Shown in pieces: positions 1 to 16,941 of a stretch of 41,689 bases of DNA (position 1 is its first letter; every line of letters begins with the position of its first letter). The stretch is from NCBI RefSeq assembly GCF_004799035.1, contig NZ_MWIO01000045.1:1-41689 (forward strand), read 5' to 3'. Made by a program: the position numbers and the translations under genes. The notes under the pieces were generated by a model that ran no database searches, was not told the origin of the DNA, and saw only the letters and a list, made by a program, of their open reading frames with translations. The stretch is from Rhodanobacter lindaniclasticus. Lineage in GTDB: Bacteria; Pseudomonadota; Gammaproteobacteria; Xanthomonadales; Rhodanobacteraceae.

Positions 1-537
1 AACGCCGGCAATCTTGCCCGAGAACAGTACATAGTCATCGCCCGAGATTGCACCGGACTTCTTGAATGCGGCCAGCTTCGCCTGCATCGCGTCCAGCCGT
101 TCATACCCCGCAATGGTCGGGTCGATCTGGCCCAGCAACTTTGCCAGCGCGCCGGTCTACTCCGCGACGCCCACCGTGGCAGCCTTGCGGGCACGATCCT
201 CGGCGGCAAGCAACGCGGAACCACGGGCGTTCATGTCTGCCTGCGTGTTGCTGGCCTTGTTGAGCTTTTCGACGGCCGCTCGCTGCGCATCGGTCATCTG
301 AACGGCGCGCTGGCCCGACGCGATGGACTCATTCTGCGCCCGCACCTTTTCCATCGACGCCTGCACCATCGCCTTGATGCGAGCCTTGGCCTGATCCTCC
401 GATTCGGCCAGCTTATCGACGGACCTGCTGGCGCCCTCGGCGGAAACGGTCAGCTTGTCGAGGGCCTCGCTGCCCTTGGTGATTTCCGTCGCGTCCGCCT
501 TCAGAACGAGCGATGCGGTTTCGGTGCTGGTGGCCAT
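1..537 (-). CDS. Tape measure protein, N-terminal part (cut by window edge; in-frame TAG)
   Basis: This is the start of the tail tape measure protein, which sets tail length and is usually the largest gene of a siphovirus. It begins with ATG at 537, preceded by a weak AGGA. The first 126 codons are rich in Ala, Lys, Glu and coiled-coil-like. TAG follows at 157-159 (codon 127), and the same frame continues to the window edge with text typical of tape measure proteins (GQIDPTIAGYERLDAMQ and later SGAISGDDY). Both sides look like one protein, so I read the TAG as sense. It directly follows the tail assembly chaperone gene, the normal order. The C-terminus lies outside the window. Confidence 0.9.
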
Positions 538-550
538 ATGTAATCCTGTT

Positions 551-1245
551 TTACCCGTGCTGCGCCAACCACAGCGCATCTGTCAGTTCGATAGCCTCAA
601 CCTGCCACGGCGCAAACTTCACGCCGTGCAATCGCTGAAACGCATCCATGTCCGCGTAACTGATCGGCTGCACGCCGAACCCACTCTGTCGCCGCCGTGA
701 GAGCTTCGAGAACGCCTCCCACACCGGCCCGAATCCATCCGGGCAGGTGCCGTGCGCGTCAAGCGGTGCGGGGCGCTTTCCCGTGGCCTGCGCTATCTTT
801 TCCAGATGCCAGCGAACCGACTTCCCATCCTTACGTGCGACTGACAGCTTTATTTCGCCTTCGGCCCAGGCGAGGAATCGGTCGAAGGCTTGCCGAAAAA
901 ACGTTCGTCCTGCGTTGCGGCGACGATGATGGCCTGCGATACCAGTTCAGCGGAAAGCAGCCATGCCGCGACGTTATCCGGCGTACAGGCATCCTCGAAT
1001 GACCACGCTTTGACCAGTGCCGCGCGGCCCTTGGCTTCCAATGCCTGACCTTCCTCGAACGTGATCCGGTCGCCCTTTTCCGCCCGCTGGCGTTCCACGT
1101 CGTAGCGGGCCTTCTAGGCCACGGGCGAACGGTACGAACGCACCTGCACCCATTCGCCGGACGCCGAGCCATCGGGCAGCAGCAGATCCAGCTTGACGCC
1201 TTCCTCGGCACGGTCGCGGGTGTTGAAATCGGCAAGTTTTGCCAT
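551..1245 (-). CDS. Tail assembly chaperone, long -1 frameshift product (GT-type; in-frame TAG)
   Basis: The long form of the tail chaperone arises if ribosomes slip -1 at TTTTTTC (895-901) in the upstream frame. The -1 frame is open from there to TAA at 551 and adds about 115 residues, including FDRFLAWAEGEIKLS and PISYADMDAFQRLHGVKF, which resemble the T extension of lambda-like GT chaperones. The extension has no start codon or SD of its own. It ends 14 bases before the tape measure start. Known role of the family: the short and long forms in a fixed ratio load the tape measure before tube polymerisation. The product also carries the in-frame TAG of the short form. Confidence 0.85.
850..1245 (-). 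CDS. Tail assembly chaperone, short form (G-type; in-frame TAG at codon 44)
   Basis: The protein starts MAKLADFNTRDRAEEG at ATG 1245, with AGGGAG about nine bases upstream, and ends at TAA 850. TAG at 1114-1116 (codon 44) interrupts the frame between SYRSPVA and KARYDVERQRAEKGD. Both halves are in the same frame, and their sum (about 131 residues) is the usual size for this family. The position between tail tube and tape measure genes, plus the downstream -1 slippery site, supports the call. Without UAG read-through only a 43-residue peptide would form and no chaperone. Confidence 0.88.
895..901 (-). other. Programmed -1 frameshift site TTTTTTC
   Basis: On the minus strand the codons CGT TTT TTC contain the heptamer T TTT TTC in the X XXY YYZ register of the short chaperone frame. 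The zero frame stops at 850; the -1 frame is open through the slip site to 551. This is the classic arrangement of the lambda G/GT genes. Confidence 0.85.
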
Positions 1246-1252
1246 GTTGCAT

Positions 1253-1285
1253 GACTCCCTGAGTCGATAGGCTGGCCCAGCCAGC
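1253..1285 (-). repeat. Leader with two hairpins, one holding the Shine-Dalgarno (copy 1)
   Basis: On the minus strand GCTGGC-TGG-GCCAGC (1271-1285) is followed by GACTC-AGG-GAGTC (1253-1265), which contains the AGGGAG ribosome site for the tail chaperone ATG at 1245. Nearly the same pair occurs at 7248-7284 before the scaffold gene, and the first hairpin alone recurs at 2284-2298 before the tail tube gene. The second hairpin could occlude the ribosome site, which is inference. Confidence 0.7.
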
Positions 1286-1310
1286 AAAGAAAGCCCCGGC
1301 GAACCGGGGC
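1286..1310 (-). terminator. Rho-independent terminator after tail tube gene
   Basis: On the minus strand GCCCCGG-TTCG-CCGGGGC (1293-1310) is followed by TTTCTTT (1286-1292). It lies eight bases after the tail tube stop codon. It probably lowers expression of tail chaperone and tape measure relative to the highly expressed tube protein. Confidence 0.85.
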
Positions 1311-1317
1311 GCGTGGA

Positions 1318-2244
1318 TTACGGCGCTGCGGTGCGCGTCAGCATCAGTTCGGTGGCGTCAGTCGAATCCAGCAGGCCGGTGAAATTGATCTGCTGAATAC
1401 CGTAGTCGTCGCCGCTGTAGCTGTCCGTTGCCGACGTAAAGCGCGAGCGCGGCAACGACAGGGTGTAGGTGTTCGGGTTCACGGTGCCGTCCACCATTTC
1501 CACGTCCAGCGCGGTATCCACTTCGTTGCGATACTTCGTCTTGAGCGCCGCATCCTCGATGTACGCCGACAGGCTGCCCGACACGCCGATCATGCCGATC
1601 TTGTTGGCATAGGCGGCACGGTTGAACAGGCTGTATTTCTGCGCCATCGCGTTGTCCAGCGTGATATCCAACTGCGTGGCTGCATTGAATCCCACGCTGT
1701 CGATATCGAGCGAACCCTCGAACGTGGTCATGTAGTCGGTCGTGGTCTTGGTGTCGAACGTCGCGCCCACGGGCACGACATACGCCTCCTCCGACTTGCC
1801 GATGACGCTGAAGGTCACGGCGACCTTTTCCTGCAACGGGCAGGACAGTTTGAGCTGATTCACTTCGCAGCCGCGATAGATCGTGTCCAGCCCGATATCG
1901 AGATTGCGCTTCAGGATGGCGAAGGTGCGGCGAGTCGTTCCGGTCTTGAGCACGTCCGATGCCCATGTGCCGCAGAACGCAGCTTCCAGCAGGTCGTCAT
2001 ACGTGCCGAACGACAGCTCGCCCACGATATCGCCGGCTACGGTCACGGCGCCGCGCCGCGAGGTAGCGACATGGCGGTCACTACGCAGCTCGTTGGTTTT
2101 CAGATCGTTGGCGGTTTCGGTGAGTCCGGCCTAGGTCAGCCGGATCGGCTTGAAGGCGGGGGTGGTGGCGGAGATGGAGCCTGCGGTTTCGAGCGCATAG
2201 AAATAGGCGACGCGGGAACCCGTCGCAGCCAAGCCAGCAGTCAT
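1318..2244 (-). CDS. Major tail (tube) protein (in-frame TAG at codon 38)
   Basis: The 308-residue protein starts at ATG 2244 behind GAGAGG. The opening (MTAGLAATGSRVAYFYALE, then FKPIRLT) and the stretch TANDLKTNELRSDRHVATS followed by GDIVGELSFGTYDDLLEAA are typical of lambda-like tail tube proteins (PIR.T / LRSDR / GDI..ELS..TFDDLL). TAG at 2131-2133 falls between FKPIRLT and AGLTETAND, inside the conserved N-terminal region. Without read-through the conserved protein would lose its first 38 residues, so a start at the internal GTG or ATG codons is unlikely. It lies between tail terminator and chaperone and is followed by a strong terminator. Confidence 0.92.
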
Positions 2245-2269
2245 GGTGATACCTCTCAGTGGTGGCGGG

Positions 2270-2683
2270 TCAAGCCCGGTGTTGCTGGCCCCGCCAGCGG
2301 ATGGTCAGTGAAACGGTGAGCCATGCGTCATCGCGGCGAATGCTGGATCGCTCGCAGCGTTCGATCATCAGGCGCATGGTGTTGTAGACGAATGTCGTGC
2401 CGGGGTCGAATGCGGCGGCCAGCGTATCGGCATCGCCAAGCAATCCAGCGGTGCCCGAATTGAGCGGATAGTTCACGTCCACTTGCAGCAGTCCGACGTG
2501 TTCGAGCGGTGCTCCCTACCCCAGCCCAGCGACCGTGGTAGATGCTGGCATGACAAAGAGCGCGCACCACGGGGCATCGGAGGGTGGCGCGAAGTCGCGG
2601 CCTTCCGTTGCGGTCGGGTAGCTCAGGCCATGATCGGCCCATGCTTGCATCAGGCAAGATTGGATGGTGGCAAAGGCACTCAT
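2270..2683 (-). CDS. Tail terminator-like protein (in-frame TAG at codon 56)
   Basis: The 137-residue protein begins MSAFATIQSCLMQAWADHGL at ATG 2683 and contains the family-typical sequence VGLLQVDVNYPLNSGT of phage tail terminators (gpU-like/DUF4128). TAG at 2516-2518 lies between TVAGLG and GAPLEHVGLLQVD. Related proteins often have a glutamine-containing turn here, which is recollection and not an alignment. The start overlaps the stop of the preceding gene as ATGA. Its role would be to cap the growing tail tube and join it to the head connector. Confidence 0.88.
2284..2298 (-). repeat. Hairpin GCTGGC-loop-GCCAGC before tail tube gene (copy 3)
   Basis: On the minus strand GCTGGC-GGG-GCCAGC repeats the first hairpin found at 1271-1285 and 7270-7284. 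Here it overlaps the end of the tail terminator gene and lies about 40 bases before the tail tube ATG. Confidence 0.55.
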
Positions 2684-3234
2684 TTCAGCTCCGCTATGTA
2701 GCTTCCGATACGGGCCATGGAAACGCGAACCATGCCTGCGGGAGCTTGTGAGCTGTGCGCGTGGTATTCCAGCATCTCACCGTACGGGAGGGCGTTACAG
2801 AGAAAACTTACGGAACCTGCTCCGCCCATCTTCGCCAGCACATTGGCGGTGGCTGTTGCGCCTGTCGGGTCAACCGCATCGGTTACGGTTTCGTCGGGAG
2901 TCGTGACCGAACAATTCCAGTTCGCACGAAACCTGCCGCCGACGTACCCCTTCGGCGCAACGATATCCATCCCGTCGTTGAGTTTCTTGCCGCGCTTGAG
3001 ATACCCGCGCTTATCGAGATTGGCAGGATCGTCACGCAACGCGGCGTTGTGATCCTTCACTTGCACGTTGTAGTTGTGCGCCACGCGATTGGCAGCCCAC
3101 AATTCCGGGTTGCCCACGGGTGACATCTTGATCACGTCGGAGAACAGCTCGAACGTGATTTCGCGTACCTGTCGATCCATGTTGGCTTTGGCCTTCACGG
3201 CGAACTCGGCGACGGTAGCGGCGAAGTCAGACAT
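2680..3234 (-). CDS. Head-tail connector / tail completion protein
   Basis: The 184-residue protein has no internal TAG. Its N-terminus (AKANMDRQVREITFELFSDV) and the later segment VGGRFRANWNCSV resemble HK97 gp10-like or neck proteins of siphoviruses that join head and tail. It sits between head closure and tail terminator genes, the expected position. It overlaps the next gene by ATGA and its start (3234) overlaps the TAA of the previous one. It is soluble with no signal peptide. Confidence 0.72.
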   Translation of the reverse strand: MSDFAATVAEFAVKAKANMDRQVREITFELFSDVIKMSPVGNPELWAANRVAHNYNVQVKDHNAALRDDPANLDKRGYLKRGKKLNDGMDIVAPKGYVGGRFRANWNCSVTTPDETVTDAVDPTGATATANVLAKMGGAGSVSFLCNALPYGEMLEYHAHSSQAPAGMVRVSMARIGSYIAELK

Positions 3235-3593
3235 TAGCGGCGCACCTGCACGCGATACGCAACGGGAACGCCAGCAGGATTCACCGGCTCGATCTTGACC
3301 GGCGTCCAGATGACCGCGCCGTCAATCAGCTTGTCTGTCATCTGCGGCACCTGCGACGCGTCGAGAATCGCCAGCTTGTCGCCACCCTAGACCTCGTTTG
3401 CCATTGCGTAGGACGTGCTGATATTCGTAAACAAACCGATGCACGCAAGGTTGGCCGTGGTCGCCCCTGTCTCCTTGCCTGTGACGGGATCGTAAGTGCC
3501 CGGCGTCGTGCGGCGCAGTTGTAGCGTCGTGCCGAAGCGCGTCAGCAGGCGCGTGGCTGTCGCGGCCATGTTGGTGTAATCGAAAGTGGTCAT
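3234..3593 (-). CDS. Head closure / head-tail joining protein (in-frame TAG at codon 69)
   Basis: The 119-residue protein starts MTTFDYTNMAATATRLLTRF and has an LQLRRTTPGTYDPVTGK segment typical of small head closure proteins. TAG at 3387-3389 separates TSYAMANEV from GGDKLAILDASQVPQM. In this family the motif (L/V)-Q-x-GDK is common at this point, so glutamine fits well. The C-terminus (IWTPVKIEPVNPAGVPV) completes the usual length; TAA at 3234. The start overlaps the upstream gene as ATGA. Confidence 0.88.
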
Positions 3594-4018
3594 GCCTTGG
3601 CTGTCCTGATCCGCACGAAGTCCACGCCGCCGCCCGTACCATTGTCGCGCGTCATGGCGTATTCAATGGCTTGTTTCGCGGTCTTGCCGAAGTCCATCGC
3701 AGCAATAGCAAACTGCCAGCCCGAACCGATAGCGAGAGGTTGCGCGGGACTCATATCGACGGGGAACGAGTCGCCGTAGAACATGACGCGCCCACCATCG
3801 ATGACGATGGCCTCGCAATTCTCCCAGTCCGGGCCGTCGCCTTCGCATCCGCCTTTAAGCCATGCGTTCAGCTTGGAAATCTAAGCGATGCTGCCGGTTG
3901 CGGCTACATGCATCTTTCCGACCTTGGCGATCTTCGTGACGTTAGCCCACACACTGCCGGCGCATGAAGTCTGGCGATCTGCGGCCAGCGTCTTGCCATC
4001 CCATGCAATCGTAGTCAT
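3590..4018 (-). CDS. Ntn-hydrolase (proteasome-subunit-like) phage protein (in-frame TAG at codon 46)
   Basis: The 142-residue protein begins MTTIAWDGKTLAADRQ, the N-terminal pattern of phage proteins related to proteasome beta/HslV subunits, in which a Thr exposed after Met removal could be the nucleophile. TAG at 3881-3883 lies between AATGSIA and ISKLNAWLKGG. The remaining part (DGGRVMFYGDSF, IGSGWQFAIAAMDFGKTAKQAI) fits the family, with a GSG plus Ala-rich helix. It sits among connector genes. Whether it is a protease, for example for capsid or connector maturation, or only shares the fold is not known. Confidence 0.8.
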
Positions 4019-4524
4019 GCGCGTACCGCAAACAGGCCGCGCTTGACGATGTAGTCAGCGAACAACACGGCGCTAGGCCGCTGCGCATTGACCGGTAGCA
4101 CCTTGCCCTTGTTCTCCGCGTAGGTGACCGTTACAGCGCCTTCTACGCGCTCGCTGGTCACTGCGCCTTGTGCCGTTTCCGGCGGATTCGCGTCGTCCGC
4201 CATGATCTCGGCCGCGAGCGCCATCTGCCCGTACACGATTTCACGCGGCACGGCATCGGACGGCAGCAGGCGACCACGCAGCCATACATCGGTGCGCGGC
4301 CATGCCAGATAGGCGTCGGGATAGGTCTTGTGTTCCAGCTCATCGCCCGGAAGCCACTTGATCGCGTTCATGGTGTCGGCGGCGCGAATCAGCAGCGCCT
4401 CGGCTTCGGTGTCGTCGGCGGGAATGGTCAGCTTGCGCAGATCCGCGTAGGCGCGGAAGTCGGCGAGGCTTGTGTATGAATTGGCGTCCGGCACTCCTTC
4501 GCCTGATTCCACGATAATTGTCAT
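4015..4524 (-). CDS. DnaT-like / head-tail adaptor protein
   Basis: The 169-residue protein begins MTIIVESGEGVPDANSYTSL at ATG 4524, which overlaps the previous stop as ATGA. This start and the following DFRAYADLRKLTIP plus EALLIRAADTMNAI match the phage protein often annotated DnaT-like ssDNA-binding protein, in structure a head-tail adaptor. It contains no internal TAG. Gene position, directly after the capsid block and before head closure, supports an adaptor role and not replication. Confidence 0.78.
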   Translation of the reverse strand: MTIIVESGEGVPDANSYTSLADFRAYADLRKLTIPADDTEAEALLIRAADTMNAIKWLPGDELEHKTYPDAYLAWPRTDVWLRGRLLPSDAVPREIVYGQMALAAEIMADDANPPETAQGAVTSERVEGAVTVTYAENKGKVLPVNAQRPSAVLFADYIVKRGLFAVRA

Positions 4525-4691
4525 CAGGCAATCCCGTTCCGAATTTTCCACAAGATGCCGCCCGGCTTGTACTCACGCATGATGACCTTCGTCGCAATGG
4601 TATGCATTTTCTCGGAAAGCTCGATGCTGACGCGATTCTGATAAGCCTGTGTGTTGAACATGCGGTGAAGCCAGTTAGTCAATGCTTTCAT
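4524..4691 (-). CDS. Small conserved-type phage protein, unknown function
   Basis: This 55-residue basic protein starts MKALTNWLHRMFNTQAYQNR at ATG 4691 and ends at TGA 4524. Both ends overlap neighbours by ATGA, which supports it as a real coupled gene in the head cassette. It has no recognisable domain, signal peptide or membrane segment. A longer reading from 4817 would overlap the upstream gene too far. Confidence 0.68.
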   Translation of the reverse strand: MKALTNWLHRMFNTQAYQNRVSIELSEKMHTIATKVIMREYKPGGILWKIRNGIA

Positions 4692-5524
4692 GCCTTCACC
4701 TTGCGCGGTCGCCCACGTCGTTTCGGTTCGTTGCCCAGTTCGGGCACGTCTGTGCCCACTTCGGGCATGTCCATCGGTACATTCGGCAGCAGGTGGTCGC
4801 GCACAAAGGCCGCACACTCACCGCTGCGCATTTCGTCCAGCGTCCACTGCCCGTAAGCCAACCGGCTGAATAGCCTGCGCCGGTCGGCCACGCTAGGCAA
4901 GTCCGGGCCGGACAGCTCGCCCCATGCCGCATTGTCGGGCATGTCGGCGATCGCGGGCACCCCAGCTAGCAGCGCATCAATACCGATCGTGCTGCACAAT
5001 GTATGTACAACCGCCGCACCTGCCAGCGCATCAGCCAGCGGCGGCACATCGGCATCCAGCGGGTGCGGGCGAATCACACCATCGCCTACCGATTGCGCCC
5101 ATACGCCCACCTGCATCGCAGACAGCCCGTGAGACGCATCGTCAGCGCGTTGGAGCGCGATCAACGCCGGACCCTTGCCATTGCCGCCCTTCGGGGTAAT
5201 CGCCAGCCCAAGCGCGTCAAAGCGGCCAGGCGGGCAATCGAATAATGGCGGACGATTAAGCCCGCCGAGTGACACTTGCCAGTAACCCGGCGCGTCGCGG
5301 AAATACGCGGCGTCCAATACCAGCACCGGCACATCACGGGCGGCGTAAGCCCGCGCGATGTCGGCATTCTTGCCATGCATCCCGGACAGGACGACAAGGC
5401 CGAATCCCTCCGCCTCGCCGTCCCGCCAGAAATGCGGGTGGCGCCACACGAAACGCCCCAGCCCTTCGCCAAAGGCAGCCAACTCAGGGTTGTCGCCGGG
5501 CGTCCCGTACAGCGCCGCTTGCAT
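4688..5524 (-). CDS. Unknown protein with glycosyltransferase-like C-terminal segment
   Basis: This 278-residue protein, without internal TAG, sits immediately after the capsid gene (ATGA overlap at 5524). The segment VVHTLCSTIGIDALLAGVP followed by AIADMPDNAAWG resembles the sugar-donor side of GT-B folds such as Kdo/capsular glycosyltransferases, where an H-x3-S-x2-G-x2-A pattern precedes a GVP turn. The tail ends in a basic RRGRPRK motif. It may modify capsid protein or be a structural protein with a borrowed fold; this is inference only. Confidence 0.6.
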   Translation of the reverse strand: MQAALYGTPGDNPELAAFGEGLGRFVWRHPHFWRDGEAEGFGLVVLSGMHGKNADIARAYAARDVPVLVLDAAYFRDAPGYWQVSLGGLNRPPLFDCPPGRFDALGLAITPKGGNGKGPALIALQRADDASHGLSAMQVGVWAQSVGDGVIRPHPLDADVPPLADALAGAAVVHTLCSTIGIDALLAGVPAIADMPDNAAWGELSGPDLPSVADRRRLFSRLAYGQWTLDEMRSGECAAFVRDHLLPNVPMDMPEVGTDVPELGNEPKRRGRPRKVKA

Positions 5525-6507
5525 CAGTCAGACACCACGATCACACCGGCGCGATCCTTTTCACTGGTGTAGGCAACATCCCAGTTGCCCGCCGTCGCCA
5601 GCGCCGCAGCAACCGGGTTCTTGCCGCCATTCGCCACGTCCCATGTGAAGCCCTTCAGGCCCAGGTTGTAGGCGTACTCGCCCTGCATCCGGCGCAGAAT
5701 CTGTTCAAGACCCAGCACTTCCTGAAACGAGACATACTCGCCTTCGGTGTCCTCGATCACGATGCCCGAGTTCGTCAGCCCCAGCGTCTGGTACTTGGTG
5801 ACGGCACTGGAGCCGCTACCCGTGGTGATGACCAGTGACGGGTCATCGGTGACCAGAACCGGGCGGTTCAGGGTAACCGGGGTGCCGGTCTGCACGTTGA
5901 AGTTCGCGATACCCTCGATCTTCGTGGTGAACGCCTGTTCCTTGACCAGCTCGTAATACTTCGCCGAGTGCATGACCCACACGCTGATACGGCTGGCTGC
6001 ATCGCCCAGCTTCGCCAGCGCGTTGACCAGCTCCACGGTCGCCATGCCGGCCGACGCGGTGACCTTGGACGCGGCCTGCCCGGACAGTGCGCCCACGGCA
6101 GCCGCAAGGCCGCTGGAGAGCATTTCCTGCGTCGCCGCATCGGCGGACTGATTGCCGGCCACAACGCGGAAGGCGTTGTCGTCAAGGCCGGCTTTCAGGA
6201 ACGCCGAACGCGCCCAATCGACCGGGCCGATCTTGCGATTCAGCTTGACGTTGGCGATCTCGCCCTGCTGGAGCTTGAGCGAGGTGGCGGCAGTGATGGC
6301 CGTCTGATCCTGCCGCGACACGATGCCGGCGGTGTTCTTGAAGTAGGCGGAGTAATCGAAGTCACCGGCCTTGCGGTCGGTGCGCATGATGATGCCGCCA
6401 GCGGACGCGGCGTTGAACGCGGCGATGTTCTAGGTGATGGTTTCCGCGTAGCCGCTCTGGAAGAACGGGTCGCGATACTTGACGTCAGTCGGGAGGGTGG
6501 TTGCCAT
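5524..6507 (-). CDS. Major capsid protein (in-frame TAG at codon 26)
   Basis: The 327-residue protein starts MATTLPTDVKYRDPFFQSGY at ATG 6507. TAG at 6430-6432 lies between YAETIT and NIAAFNAASAGGIIM; the frame then continues through YFKNTAGIVSRQD and VKLNRKIGPVDWARSAF, signatures of a major capsid family of siphoviruses (LNRKIGPV). Relatives commonly have Gln or Glu before the N-x-x-FN motif, compatible with UAG read as Gln. A start after the TAG (Met at 6387) would discard a conserved region and has no good SD. The gene follows the scaffold and needs high expression, so UAG decoding must be efficient. Confidence 0.95.
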
Positions 6508-6522
6508 TGCGCGTTACCTCTG

Positions 6523-7242
6523 TCAGTTGGGGAGATTGCCGTAGGCTTCGGCGCCATGTTTGGCGATGAAAGCCGCCTTGTCGGCAGGTGTCATTTTGGA
6601 GCGGTTGCCACTTGGTGCGGCCCCGCCGCCATTGCCTCCGCCAGCCCCGCTGCCAGATGCTTTCGAGCCTGCGATGATCGGGGCAAATGCCACGTTCGCC
6701 GCAAACTCTGCTTTCAGTTCGTCAATCGTTGCCGCGCTGGGCTTGCCGTCCGGGCCAAGCACGCGGGTCATGGGTACGCCGTCCACGTAGTCCACCGCGA
6801 GGCGGCTACGGACGTGCGGGAGTAGCACATTGGCACTGCCCTGCAATGCGAGTTCGTTGGCGAGCGTGGTTGCCACGTTGTCCACTAGGACGTTGGTCAG
6901 CGAGGCATTGAGCCGGGTGATCTCGGCATCTTTCTCGGCCTGCGTCTTGTCCAGCTTCTCGCGCCAGCTCTTTTCCAGCGATTCCACGTCGCCGTTCTTT
7001 CGGGCGAAGTCCTCGGCAGCCTTGCGGGCCGCTTCCTCCGCTTCCTTGCGCTTGTGGTCGCTGGCCTTCTTTTCCGCCAGGAGTTCGTCCACCTTCTTTT
7101 TCAGGCCGGATACGTCGTCGTTCTTCGGCTGCGGCAAGCCTTCCACGCCCAGCGTGTACTTGCCATCTTCGCCCTATACGTAGAGCGCCGCGACGCCTTC
7201 ATCCAAGCCTTCCAGTGAATCGACGGTGTAGTTCAGTGCCAT
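6523..7242 (-). CDS. Scaffolding protein (in-frame TAG at codon 23)
   Basis: The 239-residue protein starts MALNYTVDSLEGLDEGVAAL at ATG 7242. TAG at 7174-7176 falls between ALYV and GEDGKYTLGVEG; the pattern ALY-x-x-x-DGKY-L-V-x-G is typical of phage scaffold N-termini, so both sides belong together. The middle is a long Lys/Glu/Ala coiled coil (DDVSGLKKKVDELLAEKK onward), then a Gly/Ala-rich linker and a short C-terminal helix, the usual scaffold layout. It lies just before the capsid gene. The leader at 7248-7284 repeats that of the tail chaperone. Confidence 0.92.
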
Positions 7243-7993: not shown

Positions 7994-9100
7994 TCACAGT
8001 CCGGCTAGCTTGAACGCCTCAGCGTCGCGTTGGCGCAGCTCGTCCAGACTGTACAAAAGGCCCTTGTTGTCGGTGAACCTGTCAACCGGCAGCTTGCCCT
8101 TGCGGTACAGCCTGCCACGAAGCACGCCGAGCACGTCATCCTGCACACTTGCCGGCTGATCCTTGAGCCAGTCGGCATAGGTCAGGTCTGCGGCCACTTG
8201 GCCATTCATGCTTGCCCTGGTGCCGGGACTCAACCCGTTCAGCCGCATCTGCTCGGCAGATTTCAGCGTGAACGTAGACGTACTGCGGCAACCCCAATGA
8301 ATCGCGCCCGGACCGCTAAGCCACGGGTAGTTGTGGCCGATGGGCTTGTGCTCCAGCGTGTATCGCTTGCCATCTCGCGGGACGCACCATTGCAACGTCG
8401 TGTGCGAGTCCAGCGTACTCAGCCAATCCACCGACGCGATAATGTCCGCGTTCGCCTGCGCCGTGGCATTGCGGGCATAGGCGGCCGTGTGGCTGATCGC
8501 ACTACGCACCACGGTTTCAAGGTCAGCCCTCGGCTTGTCTAGTAGACCATCGGCATAGCGCTTTGCCTTCGTCCCCTTGATGCGCCGGATGATTTGTTCC
8601 GTCGTCTGCGATTCCGTGAAACCAATCCGCACCGCGTCCCGTATCTTCTGCGCCCTGCCCGATTCCAGCCCCTGCATCCACTCCGACAGCAACCGGCCTT
8701 GGAAGGGTCGCGCCATCGCTGCGGCGTGCACCTGGGCGCCGGATACGCTCACCAGTGGCAGCTTAGCCAATACCTCGGCAGGAATCGCCTTGGTCAGCAT
8801 CAGGATTTGCTTGGCGGCTTCATACGCGCTGAACTGCACCAGCTCCGTCGTCAGTGCCTGCCCCGTGGCCGTGTAGGCTGCGGCGTTCAGGCTGCGCACC
8901 TGTGACAACAACGATTCGAGCCGATCCACCGACCAGTTACTGCCGGCGCGATCAATGGCAATCTGCAATTGTGCAATCAGATCCGCATCGGAGCGATTCA
9001 GCAGCGCCACCATTTTCTGAGCGGCGTGGTTGTTGTAGCGCTGCAATTCCAACTGGTGACGGATTGTCACCGATTGCAGGATTTCGTTAGCGGTCGCCAT
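7994..9100 (-). CDS. Minor head protein, phage Mu F / SPP1 gp7-like
   Basis: The 368-residue protein lies directly after the portal gene and shares the TAATG overlap at 9100. Near the C-terminal third it has the family signature: WLSTLDSHTTLQWCVPRDG, then GPGAIHWGCRSTST, the Mu F morphogenesis motif (D-x-x-T...C...H-x-x-CRS). The N-terminal half is helical. It contains no internal TAG although it is large. Known role: a minor head component bound to portal and DNA, needed for assembly or DNA injection. Confidence 0.92.
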   Translation of the reverse strand: MATANEILQSVTIRHQLELQRYNNHAAQKMVALLNRSDADLIAQLQIAIDRAGSNWSVDRLESLLSQVRSLNAAAYTATGQALTTELVQFSAYEAAKQILMLTKAIPAEVLAKLPLVSVSGAQVHAAAMARPFQGRLLSEWMQGLESGRAQKIRDAVRIGFTESQTTEQIIRRIKGTKAKRYADGLLDKPRADLETVVRSAISHTAAYARNATAQANADIIASVDWLSTLDSHTTLQWCVPRDGKRYTLEHKPIGHNYPWLSGPGAIHWGCRSTSTFTLKSAEQMRLNGLSPGTRASMNGQVAADLTYADWLKDQPASVQDDVLGVLRGRLYRKGKLPVDRFTDNKGLLYSLDELRQRDAEAFKLAGL

Positions 9101-10566
9101 TACGGCTCGCCTTGATTGCCCGCATCAGCGTTCGGATCGGGCGGGTTCGGCTCGGTAGGCGTCAACTCACCCAGCGCCGGCCCCTGCGACTCAAGCTCGG
9201 CGCGGATTTCGTCGTCATCCTTCTCAGGATCGATCAACCCCACCTCGCGCAGCTTCGCCCAGAAGTCGGACTCCGGCAGCTTGCCGGCCTGTACCGCCGC
9301 CAGCAACGCGCCAAGTTCGTTGGCATCCAACTGCGCCTGCACAAATTCGGTCGGGATCGACATCGATGCCACGCCAGACACGTTCATGAAGTCGCACGCC
9401 CATTGCAGGGCTTTCGTGTACGCCGCGCTGACGTTGTCACAGGCAAGGCTCAGCACGCTATGTGCCGTCACGTCCTCACTATCCTGCTGCGTCGCGGTCT
9501 TGATCGCGCTACCCGGCTGCACCATACGTGCGCCAAGCTGTGCCATTTGTTGTTCTTTCTGATCCATCGCCGACTTGGCGAGGGTGTTGGGCGCGGCCTG
9601 CATGATGCCGGCCTGACCGTTGACCGGCAGCAACCACGGCGCACGGGAGCCGAGATAGATGCCCGACTTTTCCATGTGGTCGCGCCACGTTTCGTCAAGA
9701 CCAGACATCCACGGCTGCGGCTGGCCGATGAAGTAGGCCGAATCTTCGTAGTCCGCACTGTTGCGGTAGTGCGCCAGGTTCAACGTGGCAAGGTCAAGCA
9801 TCGGCATCGGGCCAATGCCCGGCTCGTTGTCTTGCGCACCGCCAAAGGTGAATGGAATCTCGCGCCACGGCTGGCCGTTGCCACGCTTGGGGATGTAGGA
9901 CTCGACGACAACCCAATCCTTCTCGCCTTGCCGCCAAATCTCGACGGTGTAGACGCCCTCCTTGAGGCTCAGCACGCGGAATTGCGGCTCACTGACCAGC
10001 CCGAAGCCGTCATCCTGTTCGTGCGTTTCGGCCAGCACGACAAGGGATAGGATCGTCTTGCCGCCCACTTTGGCGGTGCGCCAGTTCGTGATGGACTTCG
10101 GCGGGTATAGGGCGATTGTCGCCTGCGCACCACCGCTGACCATCGCGGCCTTCGATGCCGGGGCTTCCAGCGGCGGATAGTCCACCAGCAAGCCATAGCG
10201 TCCCGGCCCGATCGCCTTGGACACCGCCTGCTGCGCCTGCTGAATCAGCGTCACACCAGAACCGGTCGCATCATCCTTGATGTAGTCCATCGCGGGCGGC
10301 AACTCGATTTCCGGCCACTGACGGAACGCGACCCCCAGCAAGCCGTTATGCGTGCGGCCGACGAAGTTGGTGTAGACCGCGCGGGACAGGTACTGGTCAT
10401 ACCGCGCGCGATTCTCCGGGGATTGATCCGTCGGGTTCGGGCGCGGCAGGTACGCATCGCCCTACGCCTTGACGGCATGCTCGCCCGCCATCGCGTCGTC
10501 GATCTGCGCCCACAGCGGCAGCGCGTCTTTATACTCGTCGCGCTGGAAGGTTACGTCTGCGGGCAT
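9100..10566 (-). CDS. Portal protein (in-frame TAG at codon 35)
   Basis: The 488-residue protein starts MPADVTFQRDEYKDALPLWA at ATG 10566, overlapping the terminase stop. TAG at 10462-10464 lies between GEHAVKA and GDAYLPRPNPTD; the text VKA-x-G-x-YLP-x is typical of DUF4055-type portals, so the gene is continuous. Later segments (AVYTNFVGRTHNGLLGVAFR, YPPLEAPASKA) fit the family. A start after the TAG has no SD and would lose the conserved YLP region. The portal forms the dodecameric DNA gate of the head. The Asp/Glu-rich C-terminus is usual. Confidence 0.94.
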
Positions 10567-12005
10567 TAGATGGCACGTCCCATGGTCATGGTCATGGCTT
10601 GCGGCTTTCCAGCCAGCACGCGGTAGCGAATGGCGTCATACATGTGATCCTCTGCTGACGTATCCACGTCATCGGGATTGCGCGTGTCACGCGGCAACAC
10701 CGGGAGTTGTGAGATCGCGGCGCGGCAGTGGTCCATGAAGTAAATGGCCGGGTTTTCCGGGTGATCCTTGCCGGCCTCACGCAAGCGCGAGCGCAGCAGT
10801 TCAAGGCCGATCTTGCGCGTGCCCGGCGCCTTGTCTGACGCCTGCCAGCGCACACCAGCAGCAGCCATTTCGTCGGCGATGGTCGGCGTGCCTGGTTGGC
10901 TCACGGCGCTGATTTGGTTGTCGGCGGGGCCGGGCTTGGCACTAGCGATCCACTTGCCGGCAATCAGCGATGCCTCCCGCTCCACAATGCCGGTGCCCAC
11001 ATCGCGCGGCGCCATCTTCAAGCCCACGTTTGCCCCGCTGGCGCCGTACCATTCGTGGCACATCACCAGCGAGCCACGCGGCGGGCACCACTTGCTCCCG
11101 TCGTCCAGCACCGCTTCCGTGCCATCTGACTCGGCAAACCACGCCACCGCGAACGGGTGCGTACTGCCCCAGTCAAAGGACCGATCCACGCGCCAGCTAT
11201 GCGGCACCTTGAATCGCGGGACGACGACTCGCGGCGTCCAGACGTCATCCAATGCACCGCCAGCGACAATGTTCCAATCGCCATCCAACATGGCCCGCAC
11301 CAATGCGGGAGAGCCTAGGCCGGACAGGCGGTCGGCGTAGTCGGGATCGTTCTCCGCAAGCGTCGGGTTGTCGGTGAGCTTCGCCGGGATGTACTGGCGC
11401 AGCATGCCGCCATCCTCTTTCGGCATCGGCACGATCGTCTGCGGCGGGGCAAGGTCGATAAACGTTGCCTTCACCCAGTTGTGACCAATGCCGCCCGGAT
11501 TCGACCCGCACACCACGCGCGGAAACTGGCCCTTCATGCCCTGCGGCACAATCAGCCCGCCAATGCGGCAGCGTGCGCGCAGATAGCGATAGATCGTCTC
11601 CGAGAAGTGCGTCAGCTCGTCGATCATCAGGACGTGGATTTCCGCGCCCTGGTACTTGCTTACGTCCTTTTCGTACTGACAGTGGCAAAGATGAATCTTC
11701 GCCCCGTTCCAGAATTCGATGAAGTTCCGTGACCAATTGATCTTGCAATAGCCGGCTTCCATCCACTCGGCCAGCAATGCCGGAAAGCCGCTCGGGCCTT
11801 CCATGTGATTCTTGAGCAAGTCATCCGACAGGCGCCGGAAGATGTAGACCTGCAAACCGGGGATCAGGGCGCACCACATGATCGCGGCCACGCGCATCAG
11901 GTGCGACTTGCCACCTCCCGCTGCCCCGCCGTACAGAATCTCGGTTGCCCGCGACTCATAGGCGAACGACTGCCGGATGTGCAGCGCTAGATCAAGACTC
12001 GCCAT
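10566..12005 (-). CDS. terL: Terminase large subunit
   Basis: The 479-residue packaging motor has a Walker A motif GGAAGGGKS at residues 26-34 and a Walker B VLMIDE at about 126-131, followed by an ATPase coupling segment (VVCGSNPGG). The nuclease half begins at FDWGSTHPF, with further acidic residues near EDHMYDAIRY. It has no in-frame TAG despite being the longest late gene here. It overlaps the small subunit gene by 14 bases and the portal start by one base. It cuts concatemeric DNA and pumps it through the portal. Confidence 0.97.
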   Translation of the reverse strand: MASLDLALHIRQSFAYESRATEILYGGAAGGGKSHLMRVAAIMWCALIPGLQVYIFRRLSDDLLKNHMEGPSGFPALLAEWMEAGYCKINWSRNFIEFWNGAKIHLCHCQYEKDVSKYQGAEIHVLMIDELTHFSETIYRYLRARCRIGGLIVPQGMKGQFPRVVCGSNPGGIGHNWVKATFIDLAPPQTIVPMPKEDGGMLRQYIPAKLTDNPTLAENDPDYADRLSGLGSPALVRAMLDGDWNIVAGGALDDVWTPRVVVPRFKVPHSWRVDRSFDWGSTHPFAVAWFAESDGTEAVLDDGSKWCPPRGSLVMCHEWYGASGANVGLKMAPRDVGTGIVEREASLIAGKWIASAKPGPADNQISAVSQPGTPTIADEMAAAGVRWQASDKAPGTRKIGLELLRSRLREAGKDHPENPAIYFMDHCRAAISQLPVLPRDTRNPDDVDTSAEDHMYDAIRYRVLAGKPQAMTMTMGRAI

Positions 12006-12291
12006 CAGGCCGCGCGATGGTCAGATTGATGACCGGCGCTGAATTCTTGACCTCGCCGCTAAGCTCCGTCTTGATTTCCTGCGGGACTAGCTTCGTCCAG
12101 AGCTTATAGAACTCGGTCTGATTGGCGAGCGCCCATGTCTACAGCGCGCCCACTCCGCCAATGCCCTGAAACGCCAATTGCAGCGCTTCCTTGCACGCCA
12201 CGGTCGTCTTGTTGAGCGAACCCTTCTTGCGGCCCTTCCCTGCGGCTGGCGGCTTCCTGCGTCCACTAGCGCTCACTTGTTTACTGTCCAT
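11992..12291 (-). CDS. Terminase small subunit-like protein (in-frame TAG at codon 51)
   Basis: The 99-residue protein starts MDSKQVSASGRRKPPAAGKG at ATG 12291. TAG at 12139-12141 separates FQGIGGVGAL from TWALANQTEFYKLWTKLVP. The joined text GGV-x-x-L-x-x-WA-x-x-N-x-TEFYKLW-x-x-L-P is a recognisable terminase small subunit/DUF signature found directly before terL in many siphoviruses. It ends at TGA 11992, inside the start of terL. The basic N-terminus probably binds DNA. A conventional stop at the TAG would remove the conserved half. Confidence 0.9.
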
Positions 12292-12339: not shown

Positions 12340-12357
12340 GTGTTACTTGAACGGCCC

Positions 12358-12633
12358 TCATGCGAGCCTCATCGTCCCGCCGCATTCGGTGCATAGCACC
12401 GGCAGCGTATGCCCCATGTCGGTCTCGCCGCAGAATGTGAAGAACTGGCCGCCAGCGAGTGCCCTTCTGCAACCCTTTCGCGCGCGCGGCGGATCGGTCA
12501 GCTTGGACACCAGCTCACGTAGCCGTGCCTTGTCACCGCCGTATGTGATCCGGCCATCGTCGCCCATGCGGATCAGGGCCACGGTGTGCGATGTGGCGGG
12601 GGGCGTAGGCAACGATCCCGCACTGGAAGTCAC
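12358..12633 (-). CDS. Hypothetical cysteine-containing protein
   Basis: The frame ends at TGA 12358. The GTG at 12633 overlaps the stop of the HNH gene and gives 91 residues; an internal ATG at about 12567 would give a shorter form. The C-terminal FCGETDMGHTLPVLCTECGG contains C-x(n)-CxxC, perhaps a zinc site. A longer reading overlaps the HNH gene heavily and is unlikely. Function unknown. Confidence 0.5.
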   Translation of the reverse strand: MTSSAGSLPTPPATSHTVALIRMGDDGRITYGGDKARLRELVSKLTDPPRARKGCRRALAGGQFFTFCGETDMGHTLPVLCTECGGTMRLA

Positions 12634-12869
12634 GACGGCATCTTGTTGTTCTTGCGTCGATTGATGCTCGCCGGAATTACCCGAAGATTCCACGGGACGT
12701 GTAGGCCGCATACGGTCTCTCCAAGTAACGGGTATAGATGATCGACCTCGTGTTTTATGCCAGTGCAATCGGTAACCCGCTGCGCCATTCGATAGAAAGC
12801 TCTCATCGCATCACGATCCGCTCTGCTCACCCATGGTGGGCACGCGCCGATCTTCTGCGCTTTCCTCAT
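12630..12869 (-). CDS. HNH endonuclease domain protein
   Basis: From ATG 12869, which has a strong AGGAGG seven bases upstream, the frame encodes 79 residues with the HNH core KHEVDHLYPLLGETVCGLHV followed by PWNLRVIPASINRRKNNK, the beta-beta-alpha-metal motif (His-Asp, Asn, Asn-x-K) of phage HNH nucleases. HNH proteins near terminase genes are often required for packaging, so the position suits that role. The same frame upstream encodes a zinc ribbon (see next entry), so the full protein may be longer. Confidence 0.82.
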   Translation of the reverse strand: MRKAQKIGACPPWVSRADRDAMRAFYRMAQRVTDCTGIKHEVDHLYPLLGETVCGLHVPWNLRVIPASINRRKNNKMPS

Positions 12870-13226
12870 CGAGACGCCTCCTGCCCGCCCGGAGCGCCTA
12901 CGTTTGCCGGTTAGCGACCGCCACCATTCAGTTCTAGCTTTGCGGCGGCGGTCCGGATGTGCGAGGCTCCACGACTTCGCTTGCTTCCGGTGGCATGCCT
13001 TGCAATGTGGGTGCAGTCCATTGCTGCATTTGGCGTATTTATAGTAGTCGCTGAACGGCTTGACCTTGCCGCATTTCGTGCACCTCTAACAGTCGGCGGG
13101 GGTGGAGGGAATTGCACCCTCGTTACGGGTGTTAGAAGCCCGGCTAAGCACCTAAGCGCACCCCGTATCTTCCGACTGAAACAGCGGTAGCTAACAGGAT
13201 TGGTTGCTCACGTTTTGGTCATTCAT
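12870..13226 (-). other. In-frame upstream zinc-ribbon extension of the HNH gene, crossing three TAG codons and the tRNA
   Basis: Upstream of ATG 12869 the frame stays free of TAA and TGA to an ATG at 13226 that overlaps the stop of the preceding small gene (ATGAATGA). The part nearest the HNH core encodes RCTKCGKVKPFSDYYKYAKC and then HPHCKACHRKQAKSW, a four-cysteine zinc ribbon as found in the HNH protein at 19166-19747. TAG codons occur at 13086-13088, 13152-13154 and 13191-13193. The tRNA (13095-13165) lies inside this frame. Either the HNH protein is read through all three TAGs, or the tRNA replaced the original gene start. I cannot decide between them. Confidence 0.55.
13095..13165 (-). 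tRNA. Suppressor tRNA, anticodon CTA (reads UAG)
   Basis: On the minus strand a cloverleaf can be drawn. Acceptor: CGGGGTG (13159-13165) with CACCCCC (13098-13104), six G-C/A-T pairs and a C1-C72 mismatch. T arm: GAGGG-TGCAATT-CCCTC. Anticodon arm: CGGGC-TTCTAAC-ACCCG, four pairs plus a C-A mismatch next to the loop, anticodon CTA at 13133-13135 with the usual T33. D arm is weak (GCT/AGC or CTTA/TTAG) with GG in the loop. Discriminator G73; CCA is not encoded. G73, the unpaired 1-72 position, G2-C71, G3-C70 and U35 agree with glutaminyl-tRNA synthetase identity, so glutamine is favoured by inference. It lies in the late operon between lysis and terminase genes. Confidence 0.85.
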
Positions 13227-13293
13227 CGCCACTCCCCATCATCTTGCGCCCTAGCGCCGCGTGCAGTTCCTCGCGCTGGTCGAATTCAGTCAT
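13219..13293 (-). CDS. Very small protein (24 residues)
   Basis: The frame ATG 13293 to TGA 13219 encodes MTEFDQREELHAALGRKMMG plus four residues. Its start overlaps the end of the preceding gene by eight bases and its stop overlaps ATG 13226, the coupling pattern seen across this operon. Too short to assign. Confidence 0.45.
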   Translation of the reverse strand: MTEFDQREELHAALGRKMMGSGDE

Positions 13294-13723: not shown

Positions 13724-13775
13724 GGACGCTCCGAATTACTGAACTCTATCGTTTCGGCTATTTTGCAGAAAGTGC

Positions 13776-13804: not shown

Positions 13805-13833
13805 AGCTACACAGTCAACAAACAGGAAACACC

Positions 13834-14028: not shown

Positions 14029-14031
14029 TCC

Positions 14032-14223: not shown

Positions 14224-14224
14224 A

Positions 14225-15007: not shown

Positions 15008-15024
15008 AAATGGGCAGCTCGTAG

Positions 15025-15447
15025 TCAGATTAGGTTCAACGAACGCCACTCTGACAAAACTGACAAGTCGTGCCATTGCTGTTCGGCTTCTATTTTCTTC
15101 TGTTCGTTACGCTTCGCCGCCGCAACGTATTTCTTGTTAGCCAGCCCCGTCACAATGCAGGGGCGTTTCCCCATCTTGTCGCTAATCGTGTACATGGCCG
15201 ACTCAATAACCCACGGGTAGAACCATTCGCCTCTCATGCACTTGCTGGCTAGCTTGCGATGCATGTCGGACTCGACCGCAAACGCCTTAGCCCTTGAATT
15301 GGTGTGCCACGCCGCGATCAGTTTTATTTCAAGTATTTGCCCGGTCTGAAGTTGCGCAATGCGCTTGTTCAAATCGTTCGATACTCCGATTTTTACGGTT
15401 TTGACCTCGCCCTTAAGATTAAAGGCTCCCATCATGTAGACGTACAT
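15025..15447 (-). CDS. GIY-YIG family nuclease (T5orf172/MUG113-like)
   Basis: The 140-residue protein begins MYVYMMGAFNLKGEVKTVKI and contains VYMMG...KIGVSNDLNKRIAQLQTG and later HRKLASKCMRGEWFYP, which match the GIY-YIG fold as in T5orf172-like proteins (first strand Y-x-M, KIG-x-S, R-x-x-LQ, final GEWF with Glu as metal ligand). It sits between the spanins and the protease gene, so it is probably a free-standing homing-type nuclease inserted in the lysis region. SD GGAGG before ATG 15447. Confidence 0.75.
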   Translation of the reverse strand: MYVYMMGAFNLKGEVKTVKIGVSNDLNKRIAQLQTGQILEIKLIAAWHTNSRAKAFAVESDMHRKLASKCMRGEWFYPWVIESAMYTISDKMGKRPCIVTGLANKKYVAAAKRNEQKKIEAEQQWHDLSVLSEWRSLNLI

Positions 15448-15549
15448 TTACACCTCCGATAAGGTAATGGGTGCTGGTAGCCTGTATCGGCAGGCAAGGG
15501 AAGCGATCCCTATTCCCAGCATGTTTACTCCGCGACTGCCTACGCGCGG

Positions 15550-16128
15550 TTAATACGTTCTGGCCTCCCGCCACTGTTCAGCGGTGAATGCCAGCGGGTA
15601 GGCGCCGGCCATCGTCAGCTGACTACGCCCGTCGTCCAGCGTGTAGATCAGGCTGACAACGCCAACAAGCTGATTGCGGCGGTTGAAAATGCCGCTACCC
15701 GAGTCGCCGTAGTAGATCCGCAGATCAAACGTGGTCGCCAGCCCGCGACGTGTAGCGACTTCTCCCGCGACGTAGCCGTGCCGGAATTGCGCACTCATGT
15801 CGCCGGGGTTGCCCAGAACGGTCACGATCCCGCCCTAATCGGGCATCTCTGCCAGCAGCGGCCAGCGGTCGAACCGGCGCCCCACGATCAGGATGATGTG
15901 ATCGTTGCCGTCCAGCATGACCCGCTTGACGCTGACCGGCTGATAGCCGATGCGCAGCGTGTAGGGCCACTGGAAGCAGTGCGCGGCACTGAGTACGGCA
16001 TGCGGCCCGATGACGGTTCCGCTACAGCTCACGCCGTCAATTTGAAGGTGTAGCGCCGCATCCTTGACCGTGCCGAAGCCGGTACAGGACGCCAGCCCTA
16101 CACATAGCAGGGCGGCGAGGATGCGCAT
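15550..16128 (-). CDS. Trypsin-like serine protease lipoprotein (in-frame TAG at codon 98)
   Basis: The 192-residue protein starts MRILAALLCVGLASC, a lipoprotein signal with Cys15. Catalytic triad candidates are His50 (SAAHC), Asp76 (DGNDHI) and Ser143 (GDSGSGIF), in the chymotrypsin order. TAG at 15835-15837 (codon 98) lies between EMPD and GGIVTVLGNPGD, before the Ser. If UAG stops translation the product lacks the nucleophile and is inactive; if read, a complete protease forms. It is placed after the small holin-like gene. A periplasmic role in lysis or envelope change is inference. Confidence 0.85.
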
Positions 16129-16131
16129 GGG

Positions 16132-16266
16132 TTAGAGCATGTTGCCGACAAGCGACAACCATTGATCTGCCGTGAGGTAGCCCGTCACCAGCAGCACGAC
16201 GCCAACGCCGATAATCCATGCGGCAACGCGCAGGTATTTCGGATCAATCTGGCCTGTCGGGATCAT
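16132..16266 (-). CDS. Small membrane protein, holin-like
   Basis: The 44-residue protein MIPTGQIDPKYLRVAAWIIG... has one strong membrane helix (WIIGVGVVLLVTGYL) and short tails. Its ATG at 16266 overlaps the endolysin stop as ATGA. Size, topology and position suggest a second holin or an antiholin. No TAG. Confidence 0.65.
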   Translation of the reverse strand: MIPTGQIDPKYLRVAAWIIGVGVVLLVTGYLTADQWLSLVGNML

Positions 16267-16733
16267 GGCTTCACACACATCGCGTATTCGCCTTGTCGGC
16301 GGGTAACCAACCCCTTGAGCTGGCGCCCGCCGGAGTTCGTCCAGCGCAGCAGTTCCTTGCACCATGCGGCGGCGGGCTGGCCTTCGTTGAGCTTGCGGAT
16401 CAGCGTGGAGTTGCATGCGGCGGTAACGCCTACGTTCCACTCCCAACTCGCCAGCGCAGCAGCCTGGTGCATCGTGATCGGGCGCTTGATGCACGGCTCG
16501 AACTTGCCCCACTCGATCGCGAGACGCTTGTCCAGCCGCGTCAAACATTCCTGCATCGTGAGCTGCATGCCCCATGTCACATCGGGGCCGGTCTCGCCAG
16601 CGCATACCGTGGCAACACCGTTAACGTCAGCGTATGTATGCGGAACGTTGCCTTCGTAATGGACGATCAGCGGAGCCGCGATCATCAGCAGGGCACCCAG
16701 CGCTATGCCGGATTTCCCCTTAGGCCCCGGCAC
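16263..16733 (-). CDS. Endolysin, T4-type lysozyme (GH24) with N-terminal membrane anchor
   Basis: From GTG 16733 the frame encodes 156 residues. The catalytic set Glu27, Asp36, Thr42 (E-8-D-5-T) lies in HYEGNVPHTYADVNGVATVC. An N-terminal hydrophobic stretch (IALGALLMIAAPLIV) rich in Ala and Gly suggests a signal-arrest-release anchor. Conserved cysteines follow (VCAGET, EPCIKR, TAACNS). It cleaves peptidoglycan at lysis. It overlaps the holin gene by 14 bases. No TAG. Confidence 0.9.
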   Translation of the reverse strand: MPGPKGKSGIALGALLMIAAPLIVHYEGNVPHTYADVNGVATVCAGETGPDVTWGMQLTMQECLTRLDKRLAIEWGKFEPCIKRPITMHQAAALASWEWNVGVTAACNSTLIRKLNEGQPAAAWCKELLRWTNSGGRQLKGLVTRRQGEYAMCVKP

Positions 16734-16941
16734 GGTCGGCTTCCGCCTCGCGCCGCTTCCGTTCGACCCACCATCGGCGCAATCGGTAGCACTGCTACGC
16801 GATCAGCCCGAGCGTGTAGACCAGCGCGGCGAGCTGCACCACATCGGGGAGCGCAACACCAAAAATCGTCAGGGCGCCCACACTCACAGCGGGTGATGCT
16901 TTGACAAGCTCGGTTGCAACATCGTTTGGGATTTCCTGCAT
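16720..16941 (-). CDS. Holin-like membrane protein (in-frame TAG at about codon 49)
   Basis: From ATG 16941 (AAGGA eight bases upstream; a second ATG at 16947 is too close to the SD) the frame encodes 73 residues. The first 48 carry one or two hydrophobic stretches (PAVSVGALTIFGVALPDVVQ, LAALVYTLGLIA). TAG at 16795-16797 follows, then a very basic tail, QCYRLRRWWVERKRREAEAD. Termination at UAG yields a tail-less membrane peptide; read-through yields the complete holin-like protein. Two such forms could act as holin and antiholin, which is inference. TAA 16720 lies inside the endolysin start. Confidence 0.82.

Follow-up and report, generated by a model that had tools for sequence, protein, structure and literature searches.

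The prophage and its late genes

The window analysed here is the whole of contig C50 of Rhodanobacter lindaniclasticus (41,689 nt; genome 4.06 Mb in 109 contigs; 60.9% G+C), and the subject of this report is a set of in-frame TAG codons in the late genes of the prophage that it carries. An earlier note had listed twelve such codons in twelve late genes, and all twelve read TAG on the minus strand (Table 1). It had also been claimed that the two sides of each TAG lie in one frame and together form a family-typical protein. PHROG profiles run across the TAG in 12 of the 12 genes and span nearly the full length of the joined proteins. The delineated late genes end in TAA or TGA, which agrees with the earlier statement that none of the late genes delineated is ended by TAG. 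The genes called by a simple picker in 16.9-41.7 kb also end in TGA or TAA and none is cut by TAG, a result that covers the called stretches only.

Table 1. Features of the prophage late region, the attachment core and the CUA tRNAs of the window and its relatives. PHROG ranges are those of the profile matches.
Feature	Position	Strand	TAG (codon)	PHROG match	Remarks
Tape measure protein, N-terminal part	1..537	-	157-159 (127)	4-176	contig ends inside gene; TAG also in C100
Tail assembly chaperone	850..1245	-	1114-1116 (44)	1-128	
Tail tube	1318..2244	-	2131-2133 (38)	tail tube/minor tail, 6-304	TAG common to L303
Tail terminator	2270..2683	-	2516-2518 (56)	4-136	
Tail completion / Neck1	2680..3234	-	none	PHROG search	
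Head closure Hc1	3234..3593	-	3387-3389 (69)	4-119	
HslV-like Ntn hydrolase	3590..4018	-	3881-3883 (46)	1-139	
Head-tail adaptor Ad1	4015..4524	-	none	PHROG search	
Unknown late protein, 278 aa	4688..5524	-	none	no family matched	between capsid and adaptor; relatives L056, L060, L062
Major capsid protein	5524..6507	-	6430-6432 (26)	major head protein, 12-317	
Scaffold	6523..7242	-	7174-7176 (23)	1-238	
Head morphogenesis protein	7994..9100	-	none	PHROG search	
Portal	9100..10566	-	10462-10464 (35)	portal, 2-472	
Terminase large subunit (terL)	10566..12005	-	none	PHROG search	93% identical in L095
Terminase small subunit (terS)	11992..12291	-	12139-12141 (51)	11-85	
Endonuclease VII-like HNH frame	12630..13232	-	3 at 5' end	endonuclease VII, residues 38-199	tRNA inside
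Degenerate tRNA, anticodon CUA	13097..13165	-			loop UUCUAAC; Rfam tRNA 22.4 bits (gathering 29)
Serine protease	15550..16128	-	15835-15837 (98)	22-165	
Endolysin	16263..16733	-	none	PHROG search	L222 homologue has TAG at 26
Holin	16720..16941	-	16795-16797 (49)	6-64	
Attachment core	41542..41689	.			common to C82 (1-144) and C68; 4 further bases at left in C68
CUA tRNA of L125	584-692				Rfam 42.7 bits, E 1.7e-6; long variable arm
CUA tRNA of L222	7931-8002				49.6 bits; directly upstream of terS
CUA tRNA of L323	954-1025				53.7 bits; directly upstream of terS

The rest of the same prophage lies on contig C82 (8.9 kb), which carries the genes of tail proteins M, L, K, I and J and an integrase. 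Seven further TAG codons were found there, three in J, two in tail I and one each in tail K and tail M. The end of the window, the start of C82 and a stretch near the end of host contig C68 share 144 bp at 100% identity, and in C68 this core overlaps the 5' end of a gene with a dusA-like protein start, which we take to encode tRNA-dihydrouridine synthase A. Since the 144-base core is common to the three contigs and lies over the start of the C68 gene, the element is read as an integrated temperate phage. The integrase gene adjoins the core, and the assembly gap between the window and C82 falls inside the tape measure gene. The prophage is at least 50 kb in size and has the features of a lambda-like temperate siphophage (integrase, attachment core, tape measure and the tail order M, L, K, I, J), its gene order being what we take to be the pattern of that family. 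A megablast comparison of the late region with phage records gave no match.

A second TAG-bearing phage element, partly broken, is present in the same genome on contig C100 (L033, 1-11162). It shares the start of the tape measure gene and its TAG with the window, and its tail I gene has three TAGs. Its terminase gene is broken by a frame shift, besides its TAGs, one of which lies inside the ATP-binding motif (SR*AGKS) at a place where glutamine (Gln) is presumably the usual residue.

The residue at UAG

The use of UAG as a sense codon in the late genes, the principal claim of the earlier note, is supported by homologue alignment, by exchange of TAG with CAG or CAA, by purifying selection, by tRNAs with a CUA anticodon and by a clean minority among the related loci. 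It had also been suggested that Gln fits most positions. Taken over all TAG columns no residue is more frequent than Gln; at several columns it is never seen in relatives. Homologues align across the TAG, and Gln was found in 95 of 215 rows over 17 TAG columns; these rows come from relatives that are mutually related and include 3 gaps, and 2 of the 95 Gln are TAG codons in L095. The Gln-rich columns are tail I 175 (32/33), J 481 (12/14), J 149 (14/24), capsid 26 (9/11) and tail I 44 (15/31). The capsid of L056, which is 74% identical over residues 1-326, has Gln at the place of the TAG in the window. For the protease and the holin there was no aligned relative at the TAG column.

Recoded relatives were compared in pairs at 65% identity or more. 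Of 77 mismatched comparisons, 33 set TAG against CAG or CAA, which is the largest class. Among the other 44 mismatches are 25 with Lys or Glu, and 24 of those are at two scaffold columns. At 15 of the 25 exchange columns some relative has Gln. The terL genes of L223 and L224 encode the same 431 residues when TAG is taken as Gln and differ at 76 bases, and at codon 214 L223 carries CAG where L224 carries TAG. The tail terminator of the window has TAG at codon 56 and CAA at codon 67, while L303 has CAG at the first of these columns and TAG at the second. The scaffold TAG column of the window is common to L095 and L324, and in L222, L303, L321 and L323 the scaffold TAG is at codon 39. In L095 terS is 96% identical and has TAG at codons 42 and 51. 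Ratios of nonsynonymous to synonymous differences (pN/pS) after the TAG were 0.06 to 0.46 in the 17 pairs tested, as expected under purifying selection. UAG most likely encodes glutamine and is most likely read by a suppressor tRNA of the late operon.

TAG is still found as a gene end outside the late genes, namely in the integrases of C82 and C100 and, as judged by eye, in an early helix-turn-helix gene of L222, and it probably still acts as a stop there. A phage-wide code 15 is doubtful because both integrases found end in TAG. The two integrase genes (L068 142-1182 and L033 9684-10799) would be extended by suppression, which may be a second effect of a code switch.

The candidate suppressor tRNA and the decoding machinery of the host

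The CUA tRNA of the window is present as a single copy in the genome. It has the orientation of the late genes and sits about 0.8 kb upstream of terS, with the lysis genes on one side and the terminase genes on the other. It has a C1.C72 mismatch, G2-C71, G3-C70 and G73, followed by CCG. ARAGORN found no CUA tRNA in the window, C82, C100 or the host tRNA loci; the tRNA of the window emerged below threshold in the Rfam scan, with E values of 3.9 (61,784 b scanned) and 0.028 (451 b scanned), each to be multiplied by 4227 families. It is weak when taken alone, so the case rests on the CUA tRNAs of relatives in the same slot. Such a tRNA is present in 4 of the 5 TAG-bearing elements that cover the slot upstream of terS (the window phage, L125, L222 and L323, not C100), and in L125, as in the window, it follows the same small reading frame. 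All four share the 1-72 mismatch, G2-C71, G3-C70 and G73, and a weak 1-72 pair together with the other three are what we take to be identity features of glutamine tRNAs. The acceptor and T arm of the L125 tRNA match the tRNA-Gln(UUG) of this host except at base 72.

Among 307 loci from outside this genome, ARAGORN reported CTA anticodons only in L222/L322 and L323, and its negatives are weak because it missed the tRNAs of L125 and the window. No tRNA match was found in the non-recoded relatives L124, L056, L133, L225 and L226, loci whose coverage of the slot was unchecked. A pattern scan of viral contigs for the anticodon and T arm of the window tRNA gave no match. The Rfam scans of the tRNA region listed no ribozyme, no search aimed at ribozymes having been made. 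The variable region of the L125 tRNA is about 40 bases, an odd length given its glutamine-type ends. In the HNH frame of the window, CTGTTAG flanks the CUA tRNA on both sides, as if the tRNA had been inserted there.

The host has three genes of the RF-1 family, one with a PET motif, one with an SPF motif and one that is short and ArfB-like. By these motifs they are presumably release factor 1 (RF1), release factor 2 and an ArfB-like protein. In the host, 46 tRNA genes score over the Rfam cut-off; ARAGORN names 46, none of them with a CUA anticodon, and a tRNA-Gln(CUG) is present. A search of the host assembly for PylS gave nothing over the curated cut-off, the best score being 27.4 bits against 178.

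Relatives with and without TAG codons

The relatives compared here are the 307 loci mentioned above, which come from viral contigs and genomes and some of which overlap. Stretches resembling late genes were found in 304 of them, 1641 stretches in total. In eleven loci, on ten contigs since L222 and L322 belong to one, two or more stretches carry a TAG and none a TAA or TGA; 15 loci have a single TAG-bearing stretch and 278 have none. On these counts the TAG pattern is taken to be beyond chance. Among 233 genomes of the host family, 3 had a match to the capsid and 22 to tail I, and an internal TAG was found only in the genome studied here; one relative has a TAA and one a TGA. The portal profile matched 10 of the 398 genomes of the host order, with one TAG in the own genome. 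Elsewhere among these matches there is a weak one with TGA and TAG, one with TGA and two with TAA.

Number and position of TAG codons

The recoding is sparse, amounting to about 7% of glutamine codons, and is confined to the late genes. In 28 late genes of this prophage there are 19 TAG and 256 other Gln codons. This list omits the HNH frame, the C-terminal piece of the tape measure and six small or uncertain frames. Exactly one TAG is present in 14 of these genes, against 7.7 expected from shuffling the TAGs over the Gln codons (P = 0.005), and the mean relative position of the TAG, partial genes being left out, was 0.32 against 0.50 expected (P = 0.002). With all 36 genes, exactly one TAG occurs in 14 against 9.3 expected (P = 0.044), the test for at least one TAG gives P = 0.058, and the position is 0.30 against 0.47 (P = 0.001). 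The wider gene set without the HNH frame gives P = 0.016 for exactly one and P = 0.025 for at least one. The N-terminal bias in position persists across the gene sets (P = 0.001-0.002).

A similar pattern was seen on the L222 contig, where 23 genes hold 26 TAGs, 10 of them in the tape measure gene. Exactly one TAG occurs in 12 genes against 6.7 expected (P = 0.012), at least one in 15 against 12.4 (P = 0.10), and the position is 0.33 against 0.48 (P = 0.002). In a pooled position test 0 of 5000 shuffles reached the observed value (70 of 89 TAG sites kept, 65 of them in complete genes), and this test is not leaned on because duplicate sites were only roughly removed. All of these tests involve small numbers and related phages. 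The tape measure gene with ten in-frame TAGs (L322 15958-18936) is unlike most of its neighbours.

The genes that carry a TAG are often the same in different phages and the place varies. The portal has one TAG in 7 of 8 phages and two in the eighth, at five different columns. The capsid has one TAG in 6 of 6 phages, at codons 23, 26 and 37, in apparently three capsid types (judged by eye, with at most 24% identity between two of them). The scaffold has one in 7 of 7, and Hc1 has one in 5 of 5 of the recoded phages tabulated; among the same phages Ad1 (5/5), Neck1 (4/4) and head morphogenesis (4/6) are free of TAG. None of the seven homologous TAG genes of the window phage and L222 share a TAG column, some of these pairs being less than 40% identical, and their unrelated capsids also differ. 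One TAG per gene is a tendency. A strict rule was rejected in view of J and the HNH frame with three each, tail I with two, terS with one to three and the ten of L322. The pattern looks like a gate that is maintained while its location shifts, and leaky suppression with purging of late or repeated TAGs can give the same picture.

A proposed late switch and its alternatives

The best explanation of the observations as a whole, and one that is very likely, is an integrated lambda-like temperate phage for which UAG means glutamine only in the late genes, by way of a CUA tRNA, as part of a late switch. The TAG codons, the tRNA genes, their order and strand and the host factors are read directly from the sequence of this Rhodanobacteraceae prophage, and the positions of these elements suggest the following course. 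When late transcription starts, a single transcript would supply the messages with their UAGs as well as the suppressor tRNA. The CUA tRNA would be charged by the glutaminyl-tRNA synthetase of the host and, once charged, would compete with RF1 for the UAG codons. Late messages that leak in the lysogen would yield only short N-terminal fragments, and the genes would remain silent. The UAGs would then add a lock at the level of translation to the switch at the level of transcription, and virus particles are probably made only once the late genes are switched on. It has further been considered that the UAGs are removable locks and not a reassigned codon: selection would keep about one early UAG in many late genes of this lineage, such that the place moves and the lock stays, with the tRNA as the key in the late transcript and the whole acting as an AND gate for virion translation in a standard-code host. 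This last proposal is plausible and is made tentatively. It is given a lower weight because the 36-gene set weakens the tests for exactly one and for at least one TAG.

Several results weigh against reading UAG as glutamine by means of a dedicated tRNA. Gln was seen in none of the aligned relatives at the TAG columns of the portal (0/22), tail K (0/22), the tube (0/6), the tail terminator (0/5) and the HslV-like protein (0/1). Before the TAG, pN/pS ranges from 0 to 0.81 on few codons, with 0.69 in the scaffold and 0.81 in the portal. The tRNA of the window scores under the Rfam cut-off and may be impaired: its D stem is short, position 55 in the T loop is a G, the anticodon stem is closed by a C.A mismatch and CCG stands in place of CCA. 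In C100 neither the Rfam scan nor ARAGORN gave a tRNA match, though the region upstream of terS is covered. C100 might borrow the tRNA of the other prophage or be a remnant.

The degenerate look of the window tRNA could mean that the TAGs are nonsense mutations in the dead genes of a decaying prophage, as prophages often decay and the C100 terminase is frame-shifted besides its TAGs. Decay is nevertheless very unlikely, since no TAA or TGA accompanies the TAGs in the late-gene stretches of 11 recoded loci, the profiles cover the proteins nearly full length, purifying selection acts on the codons that follow the TAG and the pattern is common to ten contigs. An explanation in which UAG is decoded by a tRNA of the host or a near-cognate one, such as tRNA-Gln(CUG), and the tRNA-like sequence of the window is a relic would account for a tRNA that falls below the cut-off and for C100, which has TAG genes and no tRNA found, and the required host tRNA exists. 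It is unlikely, as 4 of the 5 TAG-bearing elements that cover the slot carry a CUA tRNA. Pyrrolysine comes to mind as ARAGORN labels the tRNAs of L222 and L323 as tRNA-Pyl, which is an anticodon label only; with no PylS over the curated cut-off in the host assembly and with Gln exchange at the TAG columns, it is extremely improbable and was rejected.

A quite possible, if somewhat doubtful, alternative is that TAG is a rare synonym of CAG without any regulatory lock, kept low in number and N-terminal as incomplete suppression makes late or repeated TAGs costly. Both the underdispersion and the N-terminal bias are expected from selection against wasteful truncation. The terL of L223, with CAG where the identical protein of L224 has TAG, and the L322 tape measure also fit such neutral recoding, as do the at-least-one tests that are not significant, on the L222 contig and in this prophage when the HNH and small frames are included. 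However, a purely costly TAG should vanish, yet genes keep one at moving places (portal 8/8, scaffold 7/7, capsid 6/6, Hc1 5/5), and a change from CAG to TAG runs against the G+C richness.

Comparison with known recoded phages

Known recoded phages presumably carry TAG more densely than the prophage described here. Borges et al. in 2022 reportedly dealt with phages in which a stop codon is recoded (code 15). In the crAss-like, Lak and phAss-1 phages, as presented in parts of the published accounts, TAG is read as Gln in structural and lysis genes, the hosts use the standard code and the phage supplies a CUA tRNA (PMC10607447, PMC9523058, PMC8346664). The prophage in R. lindaniclasticus is alike in having TAG as Gln in structural and lysis genes, a host with RF1 and a phage CUA tRNA. 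The sizes given in those accounts are 136 kb for phAss-1 (PMC10607447) and about 540 kb for Lak (PMC8346664), and a partial account of the zeta crAss-like phages gives 28-38% G+C (PMC12386605). In contrast, the present phage is lambda-like and temperate, at least 50 kb in size and 61% G+C, has TAG at only about 7% of its Gln codons, still ends its integrase gene with TAG and gains little coding density. One survey of recoding, as far as its available part shows, asked for a 10% coding gain (PMC13037316). Against this, the coverage by open reading frames under code 15, with a simple picker, rises only from 0.764 to 0.791 in the window; the values are 0.759 to 0.829 for L222 and 0.799 to 0.862 for C82. 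It would seem from this that surveys which rely on coding density can overlook sparse recoding.

Two other systems are related. RSA-ATP1 is described, in the part of the report seen, as a tailed phage of about 39 kb with a suppressor tRNA-Gly(UCA), related prophages and virion genes that are broken under code 11 (PMC13059738). The window phage likewise has a candidate suppressor tRNA of its own, related prophages and late genes that are broken under the standard code. The host of RSA-ATP1 itself uses an altered code, whereas here late genes are recoded in a host that has RF1. Suppressor tRNAs of gut phages that are associated with theta ribozymes have been placed in a model, outlined in an excerpt of the paper, in which release of the tRNA switches on late genes (PMC10879173). 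The idea of a suppressor tRNA as a late-gene switch is common to that model and to the one proposed here, in which the ribozyme has no counterpart among the Rfam matches, none having been specifically sought. In the literature searched there was no account of sparse amber recoding of late genes for any temperate phage of a proteobacterium with the standard code, and none of TAGs spaced in this way. Recoding as a timer of lytic genes has been proposed previously, and most of the cases encountered in that literature are gut phages that are large and uncultured. If the present interpretation is true, the timing idea could be tested directly on a small prophage in an RF1 host, which has sparse TAGs and, where the late operon begins, a candidate key tRNA.

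Additional observations

In L323 a gene that by eye we take to be DNA methylase-like (4439-5164) lies between portal and head morphogenesis and has one TAG, at codon 230 of 241. On the minus strand of L033 (1645-1754), at the end of the terminase gene, the Proteo-phage-1 RNA motif is matched below threshold (34.4 bits against a gathering cut-off of 42).

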